Source of the DNA: Pseudomonadota bacterium
GTDB lineage: Bacteria; Pseudomonadota; Alphaproteobacteria; Acetobacterales; Acetobacteraceae
Direction: 5' to 3'
Length of the DNA: 64,000 nucleotides
Assembly: GCA_021816925.1 (NCBI GenBank)
Contig: JAKAWQ010000014.1
Coordinates: 1-64,000 of the forward strand
Below, piece after piece: positions 23,754 to 27,378 of the stretch (within the stretch, counting starts at the first letter, position 1; every line of letters starts with the position of its first letter). The notes beneath the pieces are model-generated. The model made no database searches and was not told where the DNA came from. It saw only the letters and a list, made by a program, of their open reading frames with translations. Made by a program: the position numbers and the translations under genes.

Positions 23754-24092
23754 ATGCGCACCATGCTTGCGGCCGCGCTGGCGGTCGCACTGCTGATCCC
23801 GGCTGAAGGACTTGGGGCGCGGGCGCCGGTGCAGAGCCTGCCGCGAGGCGAAGCCGCGGCGGTGATGCCTCGAGCGCAGGCGACGGCGCAGTGCGGACCG
23901 CTCGGCGTGGTGCTCGGCGTGCTCAAGGCGCGCTTCGGCGAGCGGCTGCTCTGGTGGGGCGACGGGCCGGACGGCGTGACCATGATGGTGACGGAACGGC
24001 CGGACACGCGGACGTGGACGCTCCTGGCGGTGCATGACGGCGAGGCGTGCATGATGGGATCGGGCGGCTCGGCGAGAGCGCAAGGGTCATAA
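23754..24092 (+). CDS. Exported small protein of the lysis/membrane block
   Basis: The 112-aa product begins with a clear signal peptide (RTMLAAALAVALLIPAEGLG, residues 2-21). It continues with a Cys-containing domain: CGPLGVVLGVLKARFGERLL and a TMMVTERPDTRTWTLLAVHD strand. The spacing of Cys and the periplasmic address suggest a secreted factor. The ribosome-binding site is GAGAGGA. It lies 5 bp upstream of the ExbB-like gene and may belong to that cassette. Confidence 0.65.
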   Translation: MRTMLAAALAVALLIPAEGLGARAPVQSLPRGEAAAVMPRAQATAQCGPLGVVLGVLKARFGERLLWWGDGPDGVTMMVTERPDTRTWTLLAVHDGEACMMGSGGSARAQGS

Positions 24093-24097
24093 GGTCG

Positions 24098-24502
24098 ATG
24101 GCCGTCTTCCGCCCCCGCTTCGTCGTCATCAATGTCATGGTGGCGGCGGTTGGGATTGCGGCGTGGCGGGCCGGATTATTCGCTGCGGTGCCGGCGCTCG
24201 GCGGTAAGGAAGCCGCGATGCTGGCGGGGCTTTCTCTTTATGCGCTGGTCGGCTTCGGGGCGGCGTGGCGCGGGCGCTGGGAGACGGCGAGGCATATTGC
24301 GAACGGCGTGCCGATGTGGGCGCTCGGGTGCACCGGGCTCGGCATGCTGCTCGCGGTGAACGGGCTGCACGCGCTGACGCCGGCGGCGATGGCGGTGGTG
24401 TTCCGCGACATGGCATTCGCGATCGCGCCGAATATCGCCGGCGTTCTGCTGATGGCGTGGCTGCGCGAGGCGATCTGGTGGTGCGGTGGCGAGGAGGTCT
24501 GA
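24098..24502 (+). CDS. Multi-pass membrane protein resembling ExbB/TolQ/MotA channel subunits
   Basis: The 134-aa protein has four hydrophobic stretches at about residues 8-28, 40-58, 72-92 and 103-123. The third (WALGCTGLGMLLAVNGL) and fourth (IAPNIAGVLLMAWLREAIWW) resemble, loosely, the GLLGTVxGF and LxxTLVGxxxxLWL transmembrane helices of ExbB/TolQ/MotA stators. It is truncated relative to those families, lacking the cytoplasmic loop. The next gene has an ExbD/MotB-like anchor and overlaps by 17 nt, which strengthens the reading. Phage membrane protein is certain; channel function is inference. Confidence 0.6.
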   Translation: MAVFRPRFVVINVMVAAVGIAAWRAGLFAAVPALGGKEAAMLAGLSLYALVGFGAAWRGRWETARHIANGVPMWALGCTGLGMLLAVNGLHALTPAAMAVVFRDMAFAIAPNIAGVLLMAWLREAIWWCGGEEV

Positions 24503-25064
24503 GTCACCAGGTTTCGCCTGGGCTTTCCGTGATCTGCTGATCGCTTTGCTCGTGGTCTTCATGGCGCTTGCGGCGCTGGCGCTGGTGGCGGCTACCAAGG
24601 CAGAGAAGGCCGGCGTCACGCAGGGCGATCTCGTTTTCACGCTCTCGTGGCTGAGCGCGCCGAAGGCCGATGTCGATCTCTGGGTGAAGGCGCCGGGCGA
24701 CGCGCCGGTCGGCTTCTCGCACATGAGCGATGCGCACTGCAACCTGCTCAGGGACGATCTCGGGAGCACGCTCGACCCCCAGAGCACGGCTCAGGAGATG
24801 GTGGTCTGCCGCGGGCTGCCGAGCGGGGAGTGGATCGTCGATGCGATGCTCTACCAGGCGCACGGCGCGGCGCTCCCGGTGAAGGTTACGGCCACGGCGA
24901 TGCGGCTCGGCGCCGGCGGCGTCACGACGTTCCTGGAGCAGAGTGGACTGTTGCGACACCGGGGAGAGCAACTGACGATGTTCCGCTTCCGGTTCGCGCG
25001 CGGGCATTTCCTGCCGGGCAGCGTGAACCGTCTGCCGATGAAGCTCTACGGGATGCAGCCGTGA
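24486..25064 (+). CDS. ExbD/TolR/MotB-like membrane-anchored protein with DUF2135-like periplasmic domain
   Basis: The 192-aa product has a short cytoplasmic N-terminus and one transmembrane helix, FRDLLIALLVVFMALAAL, with Asp16 at its cytoplasmic end. That is the arrangement of the proton-accepting Asp in ExbD, TolR and MotB. The periplasmic part contains DVDLWVKAPGDAPVGF and LPSGEWIVDAMLYQAHG, which match the beta-sandwich pattern of DUF2135-type domains, not the peptidoglycan-binding OmpA domain of MotB. GTG 24486 overlaps the preceding gene by 17 nt; the stop overlaps the next GTG. Together they form a co-translated trio just upstream of the lysis genes. Confidence 0.6.
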   Translation: MARRSESPGFAWAFRDLLIALLVVFMALAALALVAATKAEKAGVTQGDLVFTLSWLSAPKADVDLWVKAPGDAPVGFSHMSDAHCNLLRDDLGSTLDPQSTAQEMVVCRGLPSGEWIVDAMLYQAHGAALPVKVTATAMRLGAGGVTTFLEQSGLLRHRGEQLTMFRFRFARGHFLPGSVNRLPMKLYGMQP

Positions 25065-25519
25065 TCGCGGCGCTGTTCGCGGCCGCGGCGCTCATGACCG
25101 GCGCTGCCTCACTGTTTGCGGCGAGACCGTGGCTCAAGGCCGGCGCCTATTGCGCGCTGGTTGTCGCGATGGGTGTGACGTGGTGGGCGAGCCTGGGGCG
25201 GCCGCGGCCGATCCTTCCGCTGCTCGGCATTCCGGCCGGCACGGTGGCGGCGTTTTCGCTCGACGAGCCGCGGGCGATCTACGTGTGGCTCATGCCGCCG
25301 GGAGCGCGGGTGCCGGTTGCGCTCGCGCTGCCATGGAACGAGCGGGACGCGGCGGCGCTGCACCGCGCGATGCGGGCATCCCAGAGGCTCGGGACGCGCG
25401 TGAAGATGCACGGCGGCCAGCGGCCGGCAGGGGCGTCCGGCACGCCGATGCTCCGACGCGATGGACCGGTGTTCTATCCGGCGCCGAACCCGCCGCTGCC
25501 GCCGAAGCAGAGGCCATAG
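25061..25519 (+). CDS. Two-pass membrane protein, third member of the ExbB/ExbD-like trio
   Basis: Translation likely begins at GTG 25061 (GTGA overlap). The 152-aa product has two helices (ALFAAAALMTGAASLFA, then AYCALVVAMGVTWWASLG). A cytoplasmic or periplasmic domain follows: AAFSLDEPRAIYVWLMPPGA, then RVPVALALPWNERDAAALHR, and a Pro-rich tail. I recognise no family. The translational coupling suggests it works with the two upstream membrane proteins. Confidence 0.6.
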   Translation: MIAALFAAAALMTGAASLFAARPWLKAGAYCALVVAMGVTWWASLGRPRPILPLLGIPAGTVAAFSLDEPRAIYVWLMPPGARVPVALALPWNERDAAALHRAMRASQRLGTRVKMHGGQRPAGASGTPMLRRDGPVFYPAPNPPLPPKQRP

Positions 25520-25710: not shown

Positions 25711-25962
25711 ATGGGCGCCGAGGTTATCGCGCATCCGATGGCGGCTGGCCGCGCGCCGAACCCGCGCACGGTGCGGGCGCGCTGGCTCGCCGCCCTCGAG
25801 GCGGTGCGCGCCGACGGCGGGGTGAAGGGGCTGCTCATCTACGAGACGCCGGACGGATCTGTCGGGATCACGCCGACAAGTGACGTATCGGCGGCGCACA
25901 CGCACGGGCTGCTGATCGCGGCGATCGCGAAGTTTACCGAGGATGCGGACGACGAGGCATGA
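25711..25962 (+). CDS. Small phage protein, unknown function
   Basis: The 83-aa product has VRARWLAALEAVRADGGVKG and LLIYETPDGSVGITPTSDVS, a single alpha/beta unit. ATG 25711 immediately follows a TGAG, and the stop overlaps the endolysin start by 4 nt. No family was recognised. Confidence 0.6.
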   Translation: MGAEVIAHPMAAGRAPNPRTVRARWLAALEAVRADGGVKGLLIYETPDGSVGITPTSDVSAAHTHGLLIAAIAKFTEDADDEA

Positions 25963-26507
25963 GCGCGGATGGTCCGCGGCCAACGGCCGCGTTTGCTGCG
26001 GCGGTTGCGTGGATCCTGAACTGGGAAGGCGGCTACCAGGATGATCCGGGCGATCCCGGGAACTGGAGCGGCGGCGCGGTCGGGGCCGGCAAGCTGCTCG
26101 GGACGAAGTACGGGATCTCGGCGGCTTCCTATCCGACGATGGATATCGCGAACCTGACCGAGGCCGAGGCGCGGCTGATCTACGCGCGCGATTACTGGAC
26201 GCCGGTCGAGGGAGATGCCCTTCCGCCGGCGCTGGCGATGGTCGTGTTCGACGGGGCGGTGAACTCGGGCGTCGCGCAGTCGGCGGTGTGGCTTCAGGTG
26301 GTGGTGGGCGCGGCGACGGACGGGGTGATCGGGCCGGAGACGCTGGCGGCGGTGCAGGCGTGGCCCAACGGCGCAACGGATCTGTGCGCCGAGGTGCTGG
26401 CGCAGCGGGTGGCGGCGAACGGGATGGACCCGGATTTCGGAGTGTTCGGCCTGGGGTGGGCGCGGCGCACGGCCGCGCTTGCGTTCCAGGCGGCGACAAT
26501 GTTGTGA
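25959..26507 (+). CDS. Endolysin, glycoside hydrolase family 108 (N-acetylmuramidase)
   Basis: The 182-aa enzyme cleaves peptidoglycan at lysis. The N-terminal GH108 motif is WILNWEGGYQDDPGDPGNWS with catalytic Glu23, followed by GTKYGISAASYP and ARLIYARDYWTPV. The C-terminal third has a peptidoglycan-binding pattern, ATDGVIGPETLAAVQAW. No signal peptide or membrane anchor is visible, so it depends on the holin encoded 11 bp downstream for release. Confidence 0.92.
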   Translation: MSADGPRPTAAFAAAVAWILNWEGGYQDDPGDPGNWSGGAVGAGKLLGTKYGISAASYPTMDIANLTEAEARLIYARDYWTPVEGDALPPALAMVVFDGAVNSGVAQSAVWLQVVVGAATDGVIGPETLAAVQAWPNGATDLCAEVLAQRVAANGMDPDFGVFGLGWARRTAALAFQAATML

Positions 26508-26518
26508 GGTAGGAACCA

Positions 26519-26824
26519 ATGCAGACAACTCTCTCGACTGCCACGGCCTCCGGGGCGGTATCGCTCGCGGCGATCGTGGTGCTGGAGTGGATCCTCGGCT
26601 TCTGGCACGTCTCGATGCCTGCCGATGTGGCGACGGCGGCGGCAACGCTTCTGACCGCCGGCGTGCATTATCTCGTCGCGGTCAACGTGCTTCCGGCAGC
26701 AGCAGCCGCCGGAGGGTCCGGTGCCGCCGGAGGGTCCGGTGCCGCCGGACGGTCCGGTGCCGCTCAGCCTGCCCCCCTGCCTCCGGCGGAGCCGAAGCCG
26801 CGAGCCGAAGGCGTGGCGGCGTGA
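26519..26824 (+). CDS. Phage holin-like membrane protein
   Basis: The 101-aa protein has two helical hydrophobic segments: AVSLAAIVVLEWILGFW (about residues 13-30) and TAAATLLTAGVHYLVAVNVL (40-59). A flexible Gly/Ser/Ala/Pro tail with three GAA-GGS-type repeats follows. The position directly after the endolysin gene and the size are typical of holins. The tail repeats stem from short DNA duplications (GGAGGGTCCGGTGCC type). Confidence 0.8.
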   Translation: MQTTLSTATASGAVSLAAIVVLEWILGFWHVSMPADVATAAATLLTAGVHYLVAVNVLPAAAAAGGSGAAGGSGAAGRSGAAQPAPLPPAEPKPRAEGVAA

Positions 26825-26864
26825 CTACGCCTGGAGCCGAAGCCGCGAGCCGAAGGTGTGGCGG
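26788..26864. repeat. 32-bp direct repeat at holin 3' end
   Basis: GGAGCCGAAGCCGCGAGCCG begins at 26788 and again at 26833; the 32-nt copies differ at a single base (GAAGGC versus GAAGGT). The second copy lies in the holin-lipoprotein gap, so the segment looks like a recent tandem duplication of the holin gene end. Confidence 0.85.
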
Positions 26865-26877
26865 ACGGGGTAGCGGG

Positions 26878-27378
26878 ATGCGCAACGCGCTCTTCGCGGG
26901 TGTCGCCAGCCTGGCGCTTCTGGCAGGCTGCACCTCGGGGCCGAACGGCTCCGTGGTAACGCTTGCCTCAGCGCAGGCGGAGGCGCAGGCGATTCTCGTG
27001 GCGCTCGAGGCGGGCGCGACCGTCTACACGACGGCGAGCACGACGACGCCGGGCGAGGCGGCGGCGGTCGAGAACGTGCTGGCGATCGCGAAGGAAAGCG
27101 TGGCGACGTTCGAGGCGGCGAACCCGACCGAGACGCCGGCCGAGCTTGCCGAAACGGTGAGCCAGGACATCGAGGCGGTGCTCGCGGTGATGCCGATCGA
27201 CCCGGCGACGAAGACGGCGATCGACGCCGGCATGGCGGTGATCGACGCGCTGGTGGCCGGGCTCTCGGCCGCGCCAGTGCCGCCGGTCCCGACGCCTATG
27301 CTGACGCTCGCACCCCACGTACTGCCGGCGCCGCCGGTGCCGATTCCGGTGCCGCATCGGCTGCCTCCGAGGGCGTGA
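26878..27378 (+). CDS. Phage lipoprotein, possible outer-membrane spanin-type
   Basis: The 166-aa product has a lipoprotein signal peptide with the lipobox LLAGC (residues about 13-17). A helical Ala/Glu/Thr-rich domain follows, then an extended Pro/Val-rich C-terminus (PVPPVPTPMLTLAPHV and later). Placement next to endolysin and holin suggests an outer-membrane spanin, though it is larger than typical Rz1 and no inner-membrane partner is adjacent. Another possibility is a superinfection-exclusion lipoprotein. Confidence 0.7.
   Translation: MRNALFAGVASLALLAGCTSGPNGSVVTLASAQAEAQAILVALEAGATVYTTASTTTPGEAAAVENVLAIAKESVATFEAANPTETPAELAETVSQDIEAVLAVMPIDPATKTAIDAGMAVIDALVAGLSAAPVPPVPTPMLTLAPHVLPAPPVPIPVPHRLPPRA

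Follow-up and report, generated by a model that had tools for sequence, protein, structure and literature searches.

Ion-driven stators are, to our knowledge, of a handful of kinds only (Mot, Ton, Tol, Agl, Gld and Zor). The Mot, Ton, Tol and Zorya motors have been treated in published work (for example PMC9389320, PMC12505986 and PMC11890865), and the Exb/Tol scaffold carries assorted domains (PMC12505986). Here we describe three consecutive genes, A, B and C, found in a prophage cassette within 64,000 nucleotides of an Acetobacteraceae contig (JAKAWQ010000014.1); this whole stretch is referred to as the window. We regard the trio as a branch of the ion-driven stator superfamily that is tripartite, so far undescribed and common to phages and cells. 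The three products probably form an inner-membrane complex, a reduced member of that superfamily, which performs energised envelope work. The open literature, with subscription papers and preprints lying outside the search, contained no description of the trio or of phage-encoded ExbBD- or MotAB-like stators.

The A protein has four predicted helices (residues 4-24, 36-57, 61-89 and 95-129) and ends after helix 4. When its AlphaFold2 (AF2) model (predicted local distance difference test, pLDDT, 86) was compared with the PDB using VIA-align, ranks 1 to 16 of this predicted structure's matches were all ExbB, TolQ, ZorA or MotA (Z 9.2-10.8, 98-121 residues aligned), and below rank 16 further stators were intermixed with unrelated helical bundles. 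Relatives of A exceeded the curated cut-off of the MotA_ExbB family PF01618 (22.9 bits) both in chromosomes (42.3, 36 and 32.9 bits) and in phages (30.2 and 23.0 bits). PF01618 was matched by 9 of 12 phage members, at best with E 4.6e-6, and the ZorA model matched a phage A at E 7e-8. The resemblance to ExbB, TolQ and MotA that had been read by eye from the sequence is upheld by these relatives and by the model of the window protein.

The A protein of the window is itself joined to this family by 43-44% identity to the A protein of one viral locus (L015), by gene order, and by a hidden Markov model (HMM) built without the window group, which matched it at E 0.001 as the sole match in the window. 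An HMM made from phage sequences alone missed it, tblastn against phages found no relatives, and scans of window A and C against Pfam, PHROGs, NCBIfam and PADLOC gave nothing usable. On its sequence we take window A to be a divergent relative of the MotA/TolQ/ExbB family and not a Pfam member. The threonines of pore helices 3 and 4 are each conserved at 92-99% across the A family; the window protein keeps the first and carries an Asn in place of the second. Chromosomal forms of A are often of greater length, a cytoplasmic stretch separating helix 2 from helix 3.

Gene B contributes a candidate axle. Its N-terminus, FRDLLIALLVVFMALAAL, places an Asp at residue 16, and the AF2 model (pLDDT 90.8) has one helix with this Asp near its start. 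In alignments the Asp was invariant among all 84 distinct viral B homologues, down to ~21% identity, and it was present in every one of the 79 readable B proteins from named chromosomal loci and in 56 of 64 chromosomal B sequences. Conservation of the residue, to which the sequence-only reading had attached its comparison with ExbD, TolR and MotB, therefore holds throughout the viral set and is lost in one chromosomal subgroup. Residues 6-41, which cover the helix, gave weak matches to MotB_plug (E 0.094, 12.8 bits against a cut-off of 24; the sole Pfam match of window B) and to ZorB (E 0.012). PF02472 (ExbD/TolR) was unmatched by every B protein scanned. The proposed likeness to ExbD, TolR and MotB is supported for the Asp-bearing membrane helix, but taken as a whole B is neither ExbD nor MotB, its periplasmic part being modelled as a DUF2135/TerD-like sandwich.

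The best structural matches to the model of this sandwich were TerD (Z 10.6, 140 residues, root mean square deviation (rmsd) 5.3) and the TerD-like structure 2qng (Z 9.2, 129 residues, rmsd 3.6), both far clear of an antibody background of Z 4-5, and an OmpA-like domain was absent from the B model. That the periplasmic domain is DUF2135-like, as had been suggested from the sequence, is supported by a single hhalign comparison of B with three DUF2135 sequences (91% probability, E 9e-7); hmmscan of window B gave no match to DUF2135 (PF09906), and hhalign of B with four TerD (PF02342) sequences gave none either. Five acidic residues of the domain (D62, D64, D90, D91 and E104) are invariant and by eye appear positioned like the calcium sites of TerD. 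The sandwich probably binds Ca2+. As modelled, the domain is a TerD-shaped probable relative of DUF2135 and not the domain of ExbD or MotB. Window B was matched at E 9e-37 by a family HMM from which the window group had been excluded.

The third protein, C, begins with a hydrophobic stretch followed by a conserved domain (IYVWL...P...LPW) in which one Pro is invariant; members of the window group have a proline-rich C-terminal end. HMMs of the C family that left out the window group matched window C at E 4e-13 to 3e-22. C accompanies A and B nearly always and follows B in nearly all loci. No known relatives of C were found in the four database scans named above.

Several observations indicate that the three genes are one unit. 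The positions of the open reading frames and their coupling by start/stop overlaps, both noted previously from the sequence, were confirmed (17 nt for A/B and 4 nt for B/C). All three genes are under purifying selection (NG86, window against two viral contigs), strongest on A, with ratios of non-synonymous to synonymous substitution (dN/dS) of ~0.15-0.17 for A, 0.22-0.41 for B and 0.41-0.46 for C. Because selection is accompanied by the same A-B-C order in viral and genome loci, the trio is not a chance arrangement, and its treatment as a single unit in the sequence-only reading is supported by this conserved order.

In viruses, the only relatives that a tblastn search with B returned were in Rhizobium and Sinorhizobium phages, including p040 of phage 16-3, and in the phages read A lies upstream and C downstream of B, directly or past inserted small genes. 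Profile scans of viral contigs extended this to first 14 and then 371 relatives, 80 loci being kept from the latter. The order A-B-C was found in ~100 viral loci, essentially all fetched loci of sufficient length. Some of these are T4-like phages, a T4 portal being present in 5 of 18 records, a set that includes many fragments.

The same trio resides in bacterial chromosomes. Of 385 genomes sampled from the class to which the window belongs, 65 contained relatives of B (56 of them at E <1e-20), as did 24 of 398 from the wider phylum, some of the latter by weak domain matches only. All three genes were present in 38 of 38 genome loci, in the order A-B-C in 37. Neighbours are often plainly chromosomal (for example, as identified by eye, heme A synthase, homoserine kinase and ribonuclease H genes, or acpS and recO); a few of the sampled genome loci may be prophages. 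A scan of named genomes gave at least 539 relatives. Among the best 80 of these (loci L231-L310), which come from the PS1 clade and other Alphaproteobacteria, SAR86 and other Gammaproteobacteria, and Myxococcota, 79 have A-B-C in order. The phage form is short, its A almost without a cytoplasmic domain, and many proteobacteria carry the often longer chromosomal form. A tree of B calls for seven changes between phage and chromosome; branches with good support force at least four of these, so that exchange has occurred more than once.

Some neighbours recur. Directly downstream of the trio in 64 of the 80 named loci, across several large bacterial groups, lies a convergent (tail-to-tail) gene for a PQQ-dependent quinohemoprotein dehydrogenase; an example is L247 3702-5600, and such a gene is also seen at L165 9860-12058, outside the named set. 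Two cases of this dehydrogenase next to the trio were checked with Pfam. Proteases, secreted or Clp-type, occur within four genes of the trio in 28 of 103 viral loci. A secreted trypsin-like protease is encoded directly upstream of A in 16-3-type phages (L004 3148-4047; also L008, L009, L011, L019, L020, L021 and L023), at the position that gene X occupies in the window. In marine phage contigs the trio is flanked by a ClpP-type protease (L091 628-1452 and seven more) and by a second, membrane-anchored ClpP-like protein lacking a Pfam match (L097 4199-4792 and 19 more). The SbmA/BacA family has roles in symbiosis and peptide uptake, and we know of no report of it in phages; a member lies within four genes of the trio in nine marine viral loci (L098 1460-2482 and eight others), and the one protein checked matched PF05992 at E 7e-75.

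In the window the trio is placed among the tail genes of a contractile-tail prophage cassette (7338-39477) with terminase, portal, prohead protease, sheath, tail and baseplate genes. It holds head, tail and lysis genes and one DNA methyltransferase gene, but genes for an integrase, a repressor or replication were not recognised within the same limits; the element may be a prophage that is defective, or may resemble a transfer agent. The endolysin and holin previously noted as neighbours were both verified by profile matches (see the table). A lipoprotein-like gene (26821-27378; signal ending LLAGC), conserved in L001 and L002, is the last of the lysis cassette, and its product is a candidate outer-membrane partner for lysis. 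Gene X resembles by eye the gene upstream of A in viral locus L015, and we infer that it belongs to the trio module.

Table. Positions in the window of the trio and of neighbouring features.
Feature	Coordinates	Strand	Description and evidence
Gene A	24098..24502	+	134 aa; MotA/TolQ/ExbB/ZorA-like wheel subunit, almost without cytoplasmic domain
Gene B	24486..25064	+	192 aa, GTG start; membrane helix 8-41, periplasmic beta-sandwich 47-180
Asp16 codon of B	24531..24533	+	Candidate ion-binding residue near the cytoplasmic helix end; sequence, alignments
Gene C	25061..25519	+	152 aa, GTG start; membrane protein; family alignments, HMMs
Gene X, small secreted protein, two Cys	23754..24092	+	Directly upstream of A; sequence, neighbours
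Endolysin, glycosyl hydrolase 108	25959..26507	+	PF05838 E 2.1e-22; context, outside the trio
Holin-like gene	26519..26824	+	PHROG 9284 holin E 4.3e-4; context, outside the trio

How would such a complex work? The parts fit the plan of an ion-driven stator, with a wheel, a titratable Asp on the axle helix and an output in the periplasm; that the whole is driven by ion flow is suggested by the family. In the mechanism and 5:2 stoichiometry that we infer, A, probably in five copies, would form a wheel round the membrane helices of B, probably present in two. Asp16 of B would take up and release an inflowing proton or sodium ion, and the resulting movement would be handed to the DUF2135/TerD-like, probably Ca2+-binding, periplasmic domain of B and to C, which together would act on the cell envelope. 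In a phage, the envelope might in this way be kept or remodelled with energy during infection, up to and during release. Such energised envelope work during infection is the most likely phage job, and roles in lysis or exclusion are narrower rivals to it.

A number of points weigh against a stator-type complex. The A protein of the window had no PF01618 match up to E 1 in the Pfam scan and carries an Asn where more than 90% of its family has Thr. Foldseek alone returned its stator matches at E >1, and helical bundles readily match one another in structure searches. The profile scores of the B helix taken alone are weak. In 7 of 64 chromosomal B proteins, a coherent subgroup (loci L150, L152, L204, L205, L208, L212 and L213), Val replaces the Asp, so ion coupling is perhaps not universal. 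These proteins carry a Lys four positions after the Val (LFK), and they might lack coupling or rely on a different ion path. Our searches of the open literature turned up no experimental data.

That the stator likeness is mere helical-bundle likeness, and the true function another one such as that of a scaffold or transporter, would suit both the missing significant family match of window A on its own and the breadth with which helical models match. We nevertheless regard it as very unlikely, since relatives of A lie above the curated PF01618 cut-off and the window model matches nothing other than stators down to rank 16. Still more improbable is a Zorya-like anti-phage defence cassette borne by the prophage: ZorA and ZorB are among the weak profile matches, but A has only 134 aa and lacks the long ZorA tail, the B model is without an OmpA-like domain, no ZorC, ZorD or ZorE was recognised nearby, and the trio also occurs in lytic phages. 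Membership of Zorya was rejected; without the ZorA tail or ZorC/D/E, the neighbours of A and B are C, small open reading frames, an endolysin and a holin.

Two readings concern the phage job more narrowly. The trio could be a lysis device, a complex made late that uses or collapses the ion gradient through the Asp channel and so times lysis or breaks the outer envelope in place of spanins. The window type, with the trio just before the endolysin, holin and lipoprotein genes, agrees with this, as do 16-3-type phages, where a GH19-like endolysin non-homologous to that of the window (weak, short matches) lies 2.6-3.2 kb upstream of A, and six marine loci with what by eye resembles a peptidase endolysin two or three genes before B. 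The lysis-region setting described in the sequence-only reading holds for two temperate phage groups, the window type and the 16-3 type, but it does not extend to the T4-like Rhizobium phages of the Pootjesviridae, whose trio stands beside gp46/47-type and sigma genes, or to chromosomes, where no lysis genes were found near trio loci. N3_19-type phages likewise hold the trio among DNA-metabolism genes, and in phage I1_18 it is ~70 kb from the GH19-like gene. We rejected the trio as a lysis-only gene set on account of these DNA-metabolism and chromosomal settings; a lysis role as such is possible, and the dedicated device we consider unlikely. Alternatively, the proteins could mix or compete with host TolQR, ExbBD, MotAB or Zorya and thereby bar other phages from entering or block a defence system. 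A and B look like exactly these host parts, and several lytic phages carry the trio among DNA-metabolism genes, but cells have this trio too, as a cassette in the chromosome, and the conserved C and the periplasmic domain of B would be superfluous in a simple decoy. We judge such an exclusion or anti-host device to be distinctly unlikely.

The favoured reading, a reduced tripartite stator, can be stated more broadly: a hitherto undescribed class of ion-driven envelope motor, with a stator wheel, an axle whose sandwich binds Ca2+ and a third membrane protein that is obligate, would be widespread in proteobacterial chromosomes and would have been exchanged several times with tailed phages, in which a miniature version powers work on the envelope of the host during infection. 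This wider statement is tentative, its prospects lying slightly short of even. If true, envelope work would have a new power source, a branch that has an axle domain and a third subunit of its own and that occurs widely among marine and soil proteobacteria and in hundreds of phage sequences; phages would also carry motors of their own into the cell. Since its subunits measure ~134 to 190 residues in the window, the phage form may rank among the smallest natural stators, and it would be a convenient object for finding the parts needed in ion-driven movement. Phage 16-3 of Sinorhizobium meliloti (p038, p040 and p042) makes the trio testable in a laboratory strain.

Compared with ExbB-ExbD and TolQ-TolR, A has the same predicted fold class, with paired pore helices and a conserved Thr, and B similarly has one helix with a key Asp. 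In contrast, the large cytoplasmic domain of ExbB and TolQ is missing in A, and where ExbD and TolR have a periplasmic domain of their own, B has the DUF2135/TerD-like sandwich. Like the Ton and Tol systems with TonB and TolA, the trio has a third membrane protein, C, in which no likeness to either was detected. The four predicted helices of A recall MotA, and B has its below-cut-off match to MotB_plug; unlike these proteins, A is without the torque-generating cytoplasmic domain and B without the OmpA-like peptidoglycan-binding domain. ZorA and ZorB are both among the profile and fold matches of the trio, which differs from Zorya in having no ZorA tail, ZorC, ZorD or ZorE and in being carried by phages themselves. 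TerD is a cytoplasmic protein. The B domain shows the DxDL(W/H)V...G...E pattern seen in DUF2135, its model resembles TerD in fold, and it differs from both in being fused to a stator-type helix and accompanied by A and C.
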